DNA from: a virus
Length of the DNA stretch: 28,375 bases
Virus record (IMG/VR): IMGVR_UViG_3300008107_000287
Location: 1 to 28,375 of that record
Reading direction: 5' to 3' (one strand)
Shown: in pieces, positions 23,994 through 26,725 of the stretch
Numbering within the stretch: position 1 is the stretch's first letter
Layout: every line of letters starts with the position of its first letter
Notes under the pieces: generated by a model
Databases searched by the model: none
Told to the model about the DNA's origin: nothing
The model's input: the letters and a program-made list of their open reading frames with translations, nothing else
Translations under genes and position numbers: made by a program

Positions 23994-24000
23994 AATGAAA

Positions 24001-24030
24001 GGGGCTGATTTTTCAGTCCCTTATTTTTTA
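24001..24030 (+). terminator. Rho-independent terminator of plus-strand structural operon
   Basis: An 8-bp stem (GGGGCTGA / TCAGTCCC, one G-T pair) with a T4 loop, followed by TTATTTTTTA on the plus strand. It begins 8 nt after the stop of the 162-residue gene. Confidence 0.85.
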
Positions 24031-24054
24031 TACCTTTATCTAAACGTTGTTGCT

Positions 24055-24348
24055 ATGGTATACTTCATCATCTGGATTGCTATTGGTTTTGTTGCTGCAT
24101 TAATTGCGCGGAATAAAGGCAATAATTCTTGCCTTGGAATGATTATTGGATTACTTCTTGGTCCTATTGGTTTACTGATAGTTTTCTTTCTACCCGATAA
24201 TGAAATAGGAAAGCTAAAAAGGACTGGCAACACAAAGCAATGCCCTAACTGTGCGGAGTATGTAAAGCCAGAAGCCAGAGTATGCAAGCATTGTGGTTAT
24301 AGTTTTGGAAGTGATTCGGGTTTCGACCTTGAAAAATACAGATCATAA
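24055..24348 (+). CDS. Small membrane/zinc-ribbon protein, probable phage cargo (moron) gene
   Basis: A 97-residue protein from ATG 24055. Residues 1-16 (MVYFIIWIAIGFVAAL) and about 27-46 (LGMIIGLLLGPIGLLIVFFL) are membrane segments. Residues about 62-81 form a zinc ribbon with two CxxC pairs (CPNC and CKHC). Short two-TM proteins with a zinc ribbon resemble superinfection-immunity or exclusion-type membrane proteins. A longer reading starting at 23995 would run through the terminator hairpin, so the internal start is preferred. It forms its own unit between two terminators. Confidence 0.7.
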   Translation: MVYFIIWIAIGFVAALIARNKGNNSCLGMIIGLLLGPIGLLIVFFLPDNEIGKLKRTGNTKQCPNCAEYVKPEARVCKHCGYSFGSDSGFDLEKYRS

Positions 24349-24435: not shown

Positions 24436-24732
24436 TTAAGTAAACTCATAATAATCATTATCTCCTCTGATGATTGTTGTAAAAGGAAATCCATCTTGTG
24501 GCACTCTCTTAATCTGATCTATAAGTACAGTAGAACCAGTAAAAACAATTCTCTTTTCATTTCCTTTTATGATTTGTAGGGTTAGTAACTCAGTGCCTTT
24601 TTTATGTTTGGAAGGTTCAACTTTATAGTCTAATACTTGAATAGATAAATTGAATAGTTTTTGTACCTGAATCTTTTCGCCTACAAACTGATTCACTTTT
24701 GGCTTGATGTTGAATTCACTAAAGTTTTTCAT
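24436..24732 (-). CDS. DGR-linked accessory protein, not Avd-like
   Basis: A 98-residue protein whose ATG overlaps the last 14 nt of the reverse transcriptase gene, so translation is probably coupled. It reads as alternating strands (GEKIQVQKLFNLSIQVLDYK, LLTLQII, RIVFTGS), one helix (TVLIDQIKRV) and a final pair of strands (FPFTTIIRG, DYYEFT). This order fits an OB-like fold but is not proof. Avd, the usual DGR partner, is a helical bundle; no such gene is visible nearby. Conserved hypothetical accessory genes have been noted in DGR surveys. A nucleic-acid-binding role that replaces Avd is an inference. Confidence 0.75.
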   Translation of the reverse strand: MKNFSEFNIKPKVNQFVGEKIQVQKLFNLSIQVLDYKVEPSKHKKGTELLTLQIIKGNEKRIVFTGSTVLIDQIKRVPQDGFPFTTIIRGDNDYYEFT

Positions 24733-25678
24733 CTTTTAAAATTGTTTTCGTAAAGTGTTTCGCATCGCAGTGTTTCAACCAACCTAAGTAACTAGCTTGT
24801 GAGGCATGGTTCGGATTAGATGCCATCTTACGTGCAAATGATTTCTTAATTGACTTTCTGATTAGTATATGAGAATGAAAGAATTTATATCCAACGTAAT
24901 CTATGCCTCTAGCAGCAACAGGAAATACCTGGTGATTATCTTTTACTTCTAACTTCAAAGATTTTAGGTATTGCTTGATGTCAGACAGTAAGTTATGTAA
25001 TACCTGTTTATCTGAATGAAGAATAACAATGTCATCGGCATATCTGTAGTAGTACTTTACCGCTTTTTGTTCTTTTATCCAATGGTCGAAATAGCTGAGG
25101 TAAAAGTTTGCCAGATACTGGCTAAGGTAGTTGCCAATGGGTAAGCCTGGCGCACTGTCTATTATTTCATCGAGTAGTTTTAAAAGACGATGGTCCTTTA
25201 TCTTTTTTCTAATCAATGATTTTAGTATGTCGTGATCAATACTTGGATAAAACTTCTTGATGTCAAACTTTAAACAATAGCGTGTTTGATTCTCATTTAC
25301 TAAATCTTGTTTGAGTGTGTAAAATAGTTTGTGTATGCCTCGGCCTTTTATGCACGAGTAAGTGTCTTTTGTAAAGGTGTTTACAAAGATTGGTTCGAGT
25401 ACATTCATTACTGCATGATGCGTGATTCTGTCTGGATAGTAAGGAAGTCTATAAACCAATCTTTCTTTAGGTTCATATATAGTAAAAACATCGTATCTAG
25501 ATGTTTTGTAATTCCCATTTAGAAGTGTGTTATGAAGAGCAATAATGTTCTGCTCTTGATTACGAAGGTGTAGTTTAACTCCGTATTGATTTGATTTGCC
25601 TTTTTGGGCTTTTAAATCTGCAAGTTGTAGATTTTCTATGCTTGCAATTTTATCGAAGATGTTATTTATTCTTTTCAT
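24719..25678 (-). CDS. Diversity-generating retroelement reverse transcriptase
   Basis: A 319-residue RT. Motif A is CLKFDIKKFYPSI with catalytic Asp139. Motif 4 reads LPIGNYLSQYLANFYLS (residues 179-195); the IGxxxSQ form instead of the QGxxxSP of group II intron RTs is the hallmark of DGR RTs. Motif C is YRYADDIVIL with the Asp pair 215-216. No maturase or endonuclease domain follows. The C-terminus has IDYVGYKFFHSHILIRKS, normal for the thumb region of this family. It lies 106 nt downstream of the template repeat and copies that RNA into adenine-mutated cDNA that replaces the variable repeats. Confidence 0.96.
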   Translation of the reverse strand: MKRINNIFDKIASIENLQLADLKAQKGKSNQYGVKLHLRNQEQNIIALHNTLLNGNYKTSRYDVFTIYEPKERLVYRLPYYPDRITHHAVMNVLEPIFVNTFTKDTYSCIKGRGIHKLFYTLKQDLVNENQTRYCLKFDIKKFYPSIDHDILKSLIRKKIKDHRLLKLLDEIIDSAPGLPIGNYLSQYLANFYLSYFDHWIKEQKAVKYYYRYADDIVILHSDKQVLHNLLSDIKQYLKSLKLEVKDNHQVFPVAARGIDYVGYKFFHSHILIRKSIKKSFARKMASNPNHASQASYLGWLKHCDAKHFTKTILKDEKL

Positions 25679-25748
25679 CCTTTGCTTTTAATGAGTCGCC
25701 TTCTTCCAATAAGGTTTACCAACGCCTCATGTTTTGTTAAGTTATTTT

Positions 25749-25762
25749 TTGCCAAGTGGCAA
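25749..25762. repeat. Hairpin in the spacer downstream of the template repeat
   Basis: TTGCC / GGCAA inverted repeat with a 4-nt loop, 22 nt beyond the template repeat, followed by A6 on the minus strand. It may be a structural element of the template RNA. It is unrelated in sequence and distance to the hairpins after the variable repeats. Confidence 0.5.
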
Positions 25763-25784
25763 GGCCTGTTTCGGTATGTTTGTT

Positions 25785-25861
25785 AGCATAGGTGCGAGCT
25801 GACATTCGAATTCGAGTTCCAATTATCGTAGTCGTTATACTGAAAACCGGAGGAACCGCCC
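25785..25861 (-). repeat. DGR template repeat (TR)
   Basis: A 77-nt repeat of the two variable repeats. On the coding strand it would read GGSSGF, then Q-Y-N-D-Y-D-N-W-N-S-N-S-N, then V-S-S-H-L-C, with many AAY codons as expected for a template. It has 18 adenines on that strand. All differences to either variable repeat fall on those adenines. Direct identity stops on both sides of this interval. Confidence 0.96.
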
Positions 25862-25883
25862 AACCAAAACACAGCCTATTTTT

Positions 25884-26273
25884 TTACATCAAGAAATACT
25901 CTTTATACAATTCAATAAATTGATTGCCCACATACTCTGCAGTATCATAATTAATAAAGCAAAGGCGCGAGCCGACACCCGAATTCGAGCGCCAAGCAGC
26001 GCAGTCGTAAGACCGAAAACCGGAGGAACCGCCCATATCAAACCATGGGTAGTATTTGTATTGATCGTAATCGTTCCAATCTGGTTGCCACGGTTTGTTA
26101 TCGTTAGCAAGCTGATTAGCAGCGCGTGCTATCAACACAAGTTTTGCATGCGCTTGCATGGCTTTTCTGTCTTGGTCTGGATAGAGCTCAAAAGTTGGAA
26201 CAACAGAAGGCTCAATGCCTAATACTTTGCAGGCATCTTCGAAGGTTTTTAAGTTTTCTTGTAAGTTTTTCAT
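25884..26273 (-). CDS. DGR target protein 1
   Basis: A 129-residue protein whose residues 81-105 are encoded by variable repeat VR1. The N-terminus (LKTFEDACKVLGIEP, then DRKAMQAHAKLVLIARAANQ) is helical. A conserved region follows (WQPDWNDYDQYKYYPWFDM), then the variable GGSSGF...GSRLCF segment, and a conserved C-terminal tail (AEYVGNQFIELYKEYF). Related proteins are common in Bacteroidetes phages and prophages, and their function is unknown. No signal peptide, membrane segment or fibre-like part is visible. The stop lies 22 nt from the template repeat. A ligand-binding surface is likely at the varied residues. Confidence 0.9.
   Translation of the reverse strand: MKNLQENLKTFEDACKVLGIEPSVVPTFELYPDQDRKAMQAHAKLVLIARAANQLANDNKPWQPDWNDYDQYKYYPWFDMGGSSGFRSYDCAAWRSNSGVGSRLCFINYDTAEYVGNQFIELYKEYFLM
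25932..25945. repeat. Hairpin downstream of VR1
   Basis: ATACT / AGTAT 5-bp inverted repeat with a 4-nt loop, 12 nt beyond the 3' end (coding strand) of VR1. In the Bordetella phage DGR a hairpin or cruciform at a similar place is needed for efficient retrohoming. A counterpart lies after VR2; the template repeat lacks it. Confidence 0.6.
25958..26034 (-). repeat. DGR variable repeat VR1
   Basis: A 77-nt region aligned without gaps to the template at 25785-25861. It differs at 14 sites, all at template adenines (coding strand): among the outcomes are Q to R, Y to S, N to Y, Y to C, D to A, N to A, N to R and N to G. The other 59 bases, and four of the adenines, are unchanged. The 3' part (GTCGGCTCGC) is where the initiation of mutagenic homing is expected. 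Confidence 0.96.
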
Positions 26274-26275
26274 AA

Positions 26276-26725
26276 TTAGATAGTCATAAATTGTTTGTAC
26301 TGATTTAAAAATTGCGTGCCTGCATACTCTGCCAGTACGCTGCTTTTATAGCAAAGGCGCGAGCCGACAGTCGAAAACGAGTACCAACAAACGTAGTCGT
26401 GACACCGAAAACCGGAGGAACCGCCCATGTAGAACCAAGCGTAATACTTTGGTTGATTGTCGTTATTCCAATCTGGTTGCCATCCTTCATTGAGGCACTG
26501 TACAAGCATTTTTAAAAAGCGATATGCTTTTTCATCTGGTGTTAGATCTTCGCATTTTTCATCGAACTCTTCTTCTGTTAGCAAGTGATGAGCAAGTACA
26601 TCTTTCACGGTTTTAAATCTTTCTCTCACATCTTTTGGCACAGGTTTAAATTTGATTTCGCCTGAGTTCACATCGACATTATCGATTTGAAAGCCTTCTG
26701 GAATTTGAATTTTTAGTGTTTGCAT
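26276..26725 (-). CDS. DGR target protein 2
   Basis: A 149-residue protein, residues 101-125 encoded by VR2. Its N-terminus (LKIQIPEGFQIDNVDVNSG, then KPVPKDVRERF and a helical DEKAYRFLKMLVQCLNEG) is unlike target 1, but from WQPDW onward the two align: WQPDWNNDNQPKYYAWFYM, the variable GGSSGF...GSRLCY segment and AEYAGTQFLNQYKQF. It lies 2 nt upstream of target 1. The shared C-terminal module with different N-termini suggests duplication with domain exchange. Function unknown. Confidence 0.9.
   Translation of the reverse strand: MQTLKIQIPEGFQIDNVDVNSGEIKFKPVPKDVRERFKTVKDVLAHHLLTEEEFDEKCEDLTPDEKAYRFLKMLVQCLNEGWQPDWNNDNQPKYYAWFYMGGSSGFRCHDYVCWYSFSTVGSRLCYKSSVLAEYAGTQFLNQYKQFMTI
26324..26338. 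repeat. Hairpin downstream of VR2
   Basis: ATACT / AGTAC inverted repeat (one G-T pair on one strand) with a 5-nt loop, 11 nt beyond VR2. The codons around it differ from those at VR1 (GTA CTG GCA against GAT ACT GCA), yet stem pairing is kept. Confidence 0.55.
26350..26426 (-). repeat. DGR variable repeat VR2
   Basis: A 77-nt gap-free match to the template, with 13 differences, all at template adenines. Changes include Q to R, Y to C, N to H, D to V, N to C, N to Y, N to F and N to T. At most sites the new base differs from that in VR1, as expected for independent mutagenic events. Confidence 0.96.

Follow-up and report, generated by a model that had tools for sequence, protein, structure and literature searches.

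It is still regarded as unresolved how the complementary DNA (cDNA) made by a diversity-generating retroelement (DGR) finds its target and enters it (PMC12875486). We address this question at a locus in IMG/VR virus record IMGVR_UViG_3300008107_000287, a 28,375-base stretch of DNA (hereafter the window) that encodes terminase, portal, major head, tape-measure and tail-fibre genes. The locus is very probably a complete and active phage DGR, and every hallmark of such elements that is readable from sequence is found in it: reverse transcriptase (RT) motifs, differences between template repeat (TR) and variable repeat (VR) limited to adenines, an invariant TR, and a mismatch between the initiation of mutagenic homing sequence (IMH) of the VRs and its TR counterpart (IMH*). 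The DGR is ordinary in kind; its two little-described parts are a protein of 98 residues, P0002, and an element within the spacer RNA between TR and RT that is antisense to the IMH of the targets. From sequence comparison we propose, with a probability of roughly 40%, that this element guides an RNA-primed cDNA to the VR and not to the TR, and that a protein resembling the oligonucleotide/oligosaccharide-binding fold (OB-fold), either separate or fused to the RT, replaces the accessory protein Avd. The parts of the locus are as follows.

26276-26725, minus strand: target gene 2, P0004, 149 residues, carries VR2; open frame; PHROG 11581, E 9e-15
26350-26426, minus strand: VR2; 13 differences from TR, at 10 mutable adenines and 3 fixed IMH positions
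26350-26366, minus strand: IMH of VR2, same sequence as the VR1 IMH
25884-26273, minus strand: target gene 1, P0003, 129 residues, carries VR1; open frame; PHROG 11581, E 1e-22
25958-26034, minus strand: VR1; 14 differences from TR, at 11 mutable adenines and 3 fixed IMH positions
25958-25974, minus strand: IMH of VR1, coding strand CGGCTCGCGCCTTTGCT
25785-25861, minus strand: TR, 77 nucleotides, identical in four related phages
25785-25801, minus strand: IMH*, the 3' end of TR; adenines 25800, 25793 and 25789 correspond to fixed G, G and T in the VRs
25678-25766, minus strand: TR-RT spacer RNA, Rfam RT-17 (RF03020), 40.9 bits; two conserved hairpins with compensatory changes
25679-25688, minus strand: antisense-IMH element AAAGCAAAGG, the last bases before the RT start; complement of the VR IMHs
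24719-25678, minus strand: DGR-type RT, P0001, 319 residues; IGNYLSQ and YADD; RVT_1; PHROG 1423
24436-24732, minus strand: basic 98-residue protein P0002, OB-fold-like, proposed RT partner; overlaps the RT 3' end

Substitution pattern and activity of the retroelement

A first, sequence-only reading of the window had described a complete DGR with one template and two targets, on the basis of a gapless 77-nucleotide alignment of TR with VR1 and VR2. Recounting reproduced its coordinates and numbers exactly: 14 differences in VR1 and 13 in VR2, all at the 18 coding-strand adenines of the template and none at the other 59 positions, with 11 adenines changed in both VRs, three in VR1 only, two in VR2 only and two in neither. 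The template positions behind these differences (27/27) read T on the plus strand, which is A on the coding minus strand, and confinement to 18 of 77 positions by random placement has a probability of 3.6e-12 for VR1 and 4.7e-11 for VR2. The remaining components were confirmed as well. Both target genes are intact open reading frames, and the RT matches RVT_1 (E 1.3e-22) and the PHROG 1423 'reverse transcriptase' family (E 1e-118), and carries the reported DGR-type IGxxxSQ motif as IGNYLSQ at residue 181 together with YADD at 213. Among the matches listed, the nearest DGR RTs of crAss-like phages share 51-57% identity with it.

One part of that reading, the treatment of all counted differences alike, did not stand. 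Three differences in each VR (coding positions 62, 69 and 73, about one fifth of the total) do lie at template adenines, but they are fixed: each of the eight VRs in four phages has G, G and T there. Across 92 VRs from 46 related loci, position 62 is G in 91, position 69 is G in 91 and position 73 is T in 89, while the two adenines just upstream of position 62 vary freely. Because these bases are constant across the family, the comparison identifies them as the IMH/IMH* mismatch and not as products of mutagenesis, and we excluded them from the mutagenesis count; 15 mutable template adenines are left, of which 11 are changed in VR1 and 10 in VR2. Variable adenines extend up to position 57, and positions 62, 69 and 73 are almost without exception constant; the end of the written segment must therefore fall between template positions 57 and 62. 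No template codon can turn into a stop through the 15 mutable adenines, which can change up to 10 residues per target and yield 7.8e8 possible protein variants of each.

Activity was assessed by comparing the window with two related virus contigs, L002 and L003/L082 (RT 96% and 93% identical to that of the window), and with L086, a region of a Cyclobacteriaceae metagenome-assembled genome whose proposed accessory protein is 99% identical; these three independent records hold an almost identical DGR. TR is the same at 77/77 positions in the four phages and all eight VRs differ from one another. Among non-adenine VR positions, 1/472 is changed over the eight VRs, and this single change lies in one VR of L086, the phage in whose VR1 only two mutable adenines are changed; the window, L002 and L003 have 0/354, with surrounding genes that diverge by roughly 2-12%. 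Closer pairs narrow the differences further. Prophages L037 and L039 are identical in RT, TR, VR1 and 120-nucleotide flanks and differ in VR2 at 11 sites, all of them TR adenines, and L025 and L026, with identical RT and TR, have six VR differences, 6/6 at adenines; both cases look like single recent homing events.

The sister contigs thus show neither VRs fixed across strains nor, apart from the one base, substitutions outside adenines, and they keep TR unchanged while VRs differ, with near-identical relatives differing only inside a VR, in agreement with the earlier proposal that the system is active or recently active. The same TR-VR pattern could have been left behind by past homing of an element that no longer works, given that ongoing activity cannot be shown from a single contig and that some close pairs (L009/L010 and L063/L064) have identical VRs. 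Such a fossil is very unlikely, however, with the template, RT motifs and both target frames intact, every VR different beneath an unchanged TR in four phages, and pairs with identical RTs whose VRs differ at adenines only.

An antisense element in the spacer RNA

The spacer between TR and RT covers the whole RT-17 model (1-95), at a score that barely exceeds the gathering score of 40.4 bits, and sister loci match the same family at 42.1 and 40.7 bits. Compensatory changes occur in both hairpins in an alignment of 35 sequences. The literature searched yielded no link of RT-17 to DGRs or to IMH, and no description of an IMH-antisense element. In seven loci (L005, L009, L010, L023, L025, L026 and L044) an insertion of 200-400 extra nucleotides separates the spacer RNA from the start of the RT.

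The element at the end of the window spacer is a perfect complement of the VR1 IMH CCTTTGCTTT over 10 nucleotides and of VR2 CCTTTGCT over 8 nucleotides. Opposite it TR reads CCTATGCTAA, which is not complementary throughout. Within the 35 nucleotides before the RT, a VR complement of 8-14 nucleotides is present in 49 of 62 non-redundant loci and a TR complement in 0 of 62; shuffled spacers reach a VR complement of at least 8 nucleotides in 4.9%. Element and VR IMH co-vary in L034 (CTCTGTTTT/AAAACAGAG), L050 (GCCTTGTTT/AAACAAGGC), L053 (CGCCTTGC/GCAAGGCG), L067 (GCCTTGTGT/ACACAAGGC) and L075 (GCCTTTGCA/TGCAAAGGC), and also in L036. Five loci with a TR-RT gap of 300-500 nucleotides have the element about 95-140 nucleotides after TR.

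A comparable match is found in BPP-1, where spacer bases 48-56 (AGGTGGTCA) complement VR 118-126 (TGACCACCT) exactly over 9 nucleotides (shuffle p 0.01) and TR reads TGCCCATCA in the same place. This match ends at spacer A56 and abuts TR/VR G117, two positions that published biochemistry reportedly places at the cDNA junction. Given this junction, the BPP-1 RNA-cDNA strand would be a continuous perfect complement of the VR and not of the TR. Two IMH parts have been described for BPP-1, and a 21-bp IMH stretch sets the direction of transfer (PMC3240598); the mismatches covered by the spacer element fall within this stretch.

The 98-residue protein and the target proteins

The sequence-only reading named the DGR parts correctly and did not identify the spacer RNA, the antisense-IMH element or the gene for P0002, whose reading frame and the 3' end of the RT overlap. 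P0002 resembles Avd in being small and basic (11.4 kDa, isoelectric point 9.4), but the Avd profile PF05635 (23S_rRNA_IVP) matches nothing in the window and nothing in 18 related phage contigs. We rejected P0002 as an Avd, since its structural model is beta-rich and OB-fold-like and not a four-helix bundle. The AlphaFold2 model (predicted local distance difference test score, pLDDT, 93) runs strand-strand-strand-helix-strand-strand, the OB-fold order, taking as the criterion a five-strand barrel with a helix between strands 3 and 4. From this model we infer that P0002 may bind single-stranded nucleic acid. Sequence comparisons added little: run against Pfam member by member, the family gave only scattered weak matches, P0002 against PDB sequences gave nothing real, and its profile found no homologue at two crAss-like loci.

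A P0002 homologue adjoins the RT in nearly all related loci. A profile search made without reference to the RT across 395 Bacteroidia genomes returned six homologues, four beside a DGR RT and two fused to an RT C-terminus. Homologues also lie 3' of the RT in ANMV-1 and Methanosarcinales virus vir525, and in two Bacteroides phages, BT-TP2 and p00 (hankyphage), a P0002-family domain is fused to the RT, in p00 at its C-terminus. Fused and separate forms thus both occur across phages; L095, L099, L085 and L109 encode RTs of 414-437 residues with a C-terminal P0002 domain. Because of this genomic linkage and the repeated fusion, P0002 is a likely physical partner of the RT, and we consider it probable, judging from its distribution, that it is a DGR accessory protein that substitutes for Avd. 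The accessory types named for DGRs are Avd, HRDC and MSL (PMC10053308). Neither an OB-fold DGR accessory nor a name for a P0002-type protein was found in the literature searched. P0002 could supply the accessory factor that has been missing from DGRs without avd.

Both targets, P0003 and P0004, are short, homologous to each other and assigned to PHROG 11581, a family annotated as of unknown function. In most related loci homologues of P0004 precede the RT; targets usually come two in tandem and sometimes three; L005, L012, L013, L017, L024, L046 and L070 have three tandem targets and one template. At its end the window VR reads GSRLC, as CLec3 VRs reportedly do (PMC7290462). Examined for a C-type lectin fold around the VR, the target model has no match among PDB folds. 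In the BFVD viral library its distant structural relatives are uncharacterised phage proteins only, from contigs of gut phages, crAss-like ones among them. Analogy with the targets of other DGRs makes a binding role probable for P0003 and P0004, in a phage that probably belongs to Bacteroidota. The suggested host comes from L086 (JAPZUF010000005.1 71829-82122), which is about 94% identical to the window in DNA over the DGR and 82% over adjoining genes; this close relative of the phage region within a Cyclobacteriaceae genome suggests a host in Bacteroidota. Convergent with the DGR operon, on the plus strand at 23995-24348, lies a gene for a small membrane protein that has a zinc ribbon at its C-terminus.

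Proposed mechanism and known systems

In the mechanism that we propose, the RT would reverse-transcribe an RNA that includes both TR and the RT-17 spacer, with OB-fold-like P0002 probably acting in Avd's place, as its linkage and fusion to the RT suggest; the RT, TR and spacer RNA are seen in the sequence, and transcript and complex are inferred. Adenines would be copied at random and the cDNA would replace the matching part of VR1 and VR2, two steps indicated by the substitution pattern in the sister phages. The spacer's antisense copy of the IMH would pair loosely with the template IMH*, priming cDNA synthesis, and would pair perfectly with the IMH of the target, such that the RNA-cDNA strand recognises VR and not TR. 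It is this VR-only recognition that would set the direction from TR to VR.

Part of this scheme may be sufficient. The element could pair only with the template IMH* as a priming duplex, its better match to VR being a by-product of near-identical IMH and IMH*. This is a serious contender, if at less than even odds: in the minimum-free-energy fold of the window, TR CCTATGCT pairs with spacer AGCAAAGG apart from one A.A mismatch, most TR-spacer pairs are kept in the alignment of 35 spacers, and the BPP-1 TR could pair at 7/9 positions, one of them G.U. Yet selection for priming alone should produce a perfect TR match, and in every scored locus it is TR, never VR, that contributes the mismatches. 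The perfect match between VR and spacer, along with the fixed T at position 73, could also arise if the spacer RNA primer were itself copied into the target at integration, in which case homing would itself write the agreement between VR IMH and spacer, with no recognition needed to explain it. We regard this as improbable, given that position 62 is likewise fixed as G (91/92 VRs) and yet lies outside the element, and that the BPP-1 marker-transfer boundary reportedly lies upstream of the mismatched 21-bp IMH part. It is very unlikely that the conserved AGCAAAGG is the ribosome-binding site of the RT gene. It does directly precede the RT start codon in the window, but zero spacing to the ATG is wrong for a Shine-Dalgarno sequence, the element co-varies with the VR, and in the five long-gap loci it remains close to TR, with hundreds of bases between it and the start of the RT.

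Several observations weigh against parts of this explanation. A clear antisense-IMH match is absent from five divergent family members (L027, L051, L068, L077 and L081). Among 21 other DGR loci, mostly of distant phages, only BPP-1 reached p<0.05 (combined p 0.52), and an energy-based version of the test on other DGR loci gave no general signal. We therefore restrict the model to the family of the window and BPP-1, and do not claim the element for all DGRs, as 20 of the 21 other loci did not show it. Loci within one family are not independent of one another, and the family scan (74 loci, 148 TR-VR pairs, 71% of template adenines changed) penalised mismatches outside adenines. Its low rate of such changes is thereby biased and no independent evidence, a bias from which the comparison of the four phages is free. 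As for the proteins, the PDB structure matches of P0002 include OB-folds (RPA, HIN and PrgE), all of them weak and none below E 0.001, and the VR residues of the target were modelled at a pLDDT of about 57, which is low confidence. Separately, in L084 (archaeal virus vir525), about 9-16 nucleotides after TR, AAGCGCGG complements VR CCGCGCTT and not TR CCGCACTT, a suggestive match (p 0.07).

If true, the guide model would account at the level of sequence for the one-way flow of information from TR to VR, and its fit at the A56/G117 priming junction of BPP-1 suggests that the principle reaches beyond one family. The spacer element lends itself to a base-change test in a DGR system already reconstituted in E. 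coli.

BPP-1 and the window share adenine mutagenesis, an IMH/IMH* difference, the order TR-spacer-RT, a structured spacer RNA and an element antisense to the VR IMH. A recent cryo-electron microscopy study of the BPP-1 complex reportedly shows an RNA duplex at the active site, which may be the TR-spacer half of the proposed pairing. Only BPP-1 has Avd, a four-helix bundle encoded upstream of TR, and a single target, the Mtd tail fibre; its spacer RNA belongs to Phage_DGR (RF03022), whereas that of the window belongs to RT-17.

The DGR of hankyphage, a Bacteroides phage, resembles that of the window in having a P0002-family domain, but in hankyphage this domain forms part of the RT, the spacer RNA is RT-3 (RF03068), and the target is one large tail protein (PMC6199706) in place of two small ones. 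ANMV-1, an archaeal virus, likewise has a P0002 homologue directly after the RT, annotated 'hypothetical protein', and differs in its single large target, AdtA; open reading frames between its RT and target have been marked as Avd-like (PMC4372165). Also close are the lineage-3 DGRs with CLec3 VRs (Wu et al. 2018, per PMC7290462), from which avd is reported absent (PMC7290462) and which share with the window the target-TR-RT order, the lack of avd and the SRLC end of the VR. They have one tail-collar fibre target, in contrast to the two small tandem targets of the window and its separate gene for a 98-residue OB-fold-like protein after the RT. In architecture and SRLC end the window agrees with RT lineage 3.

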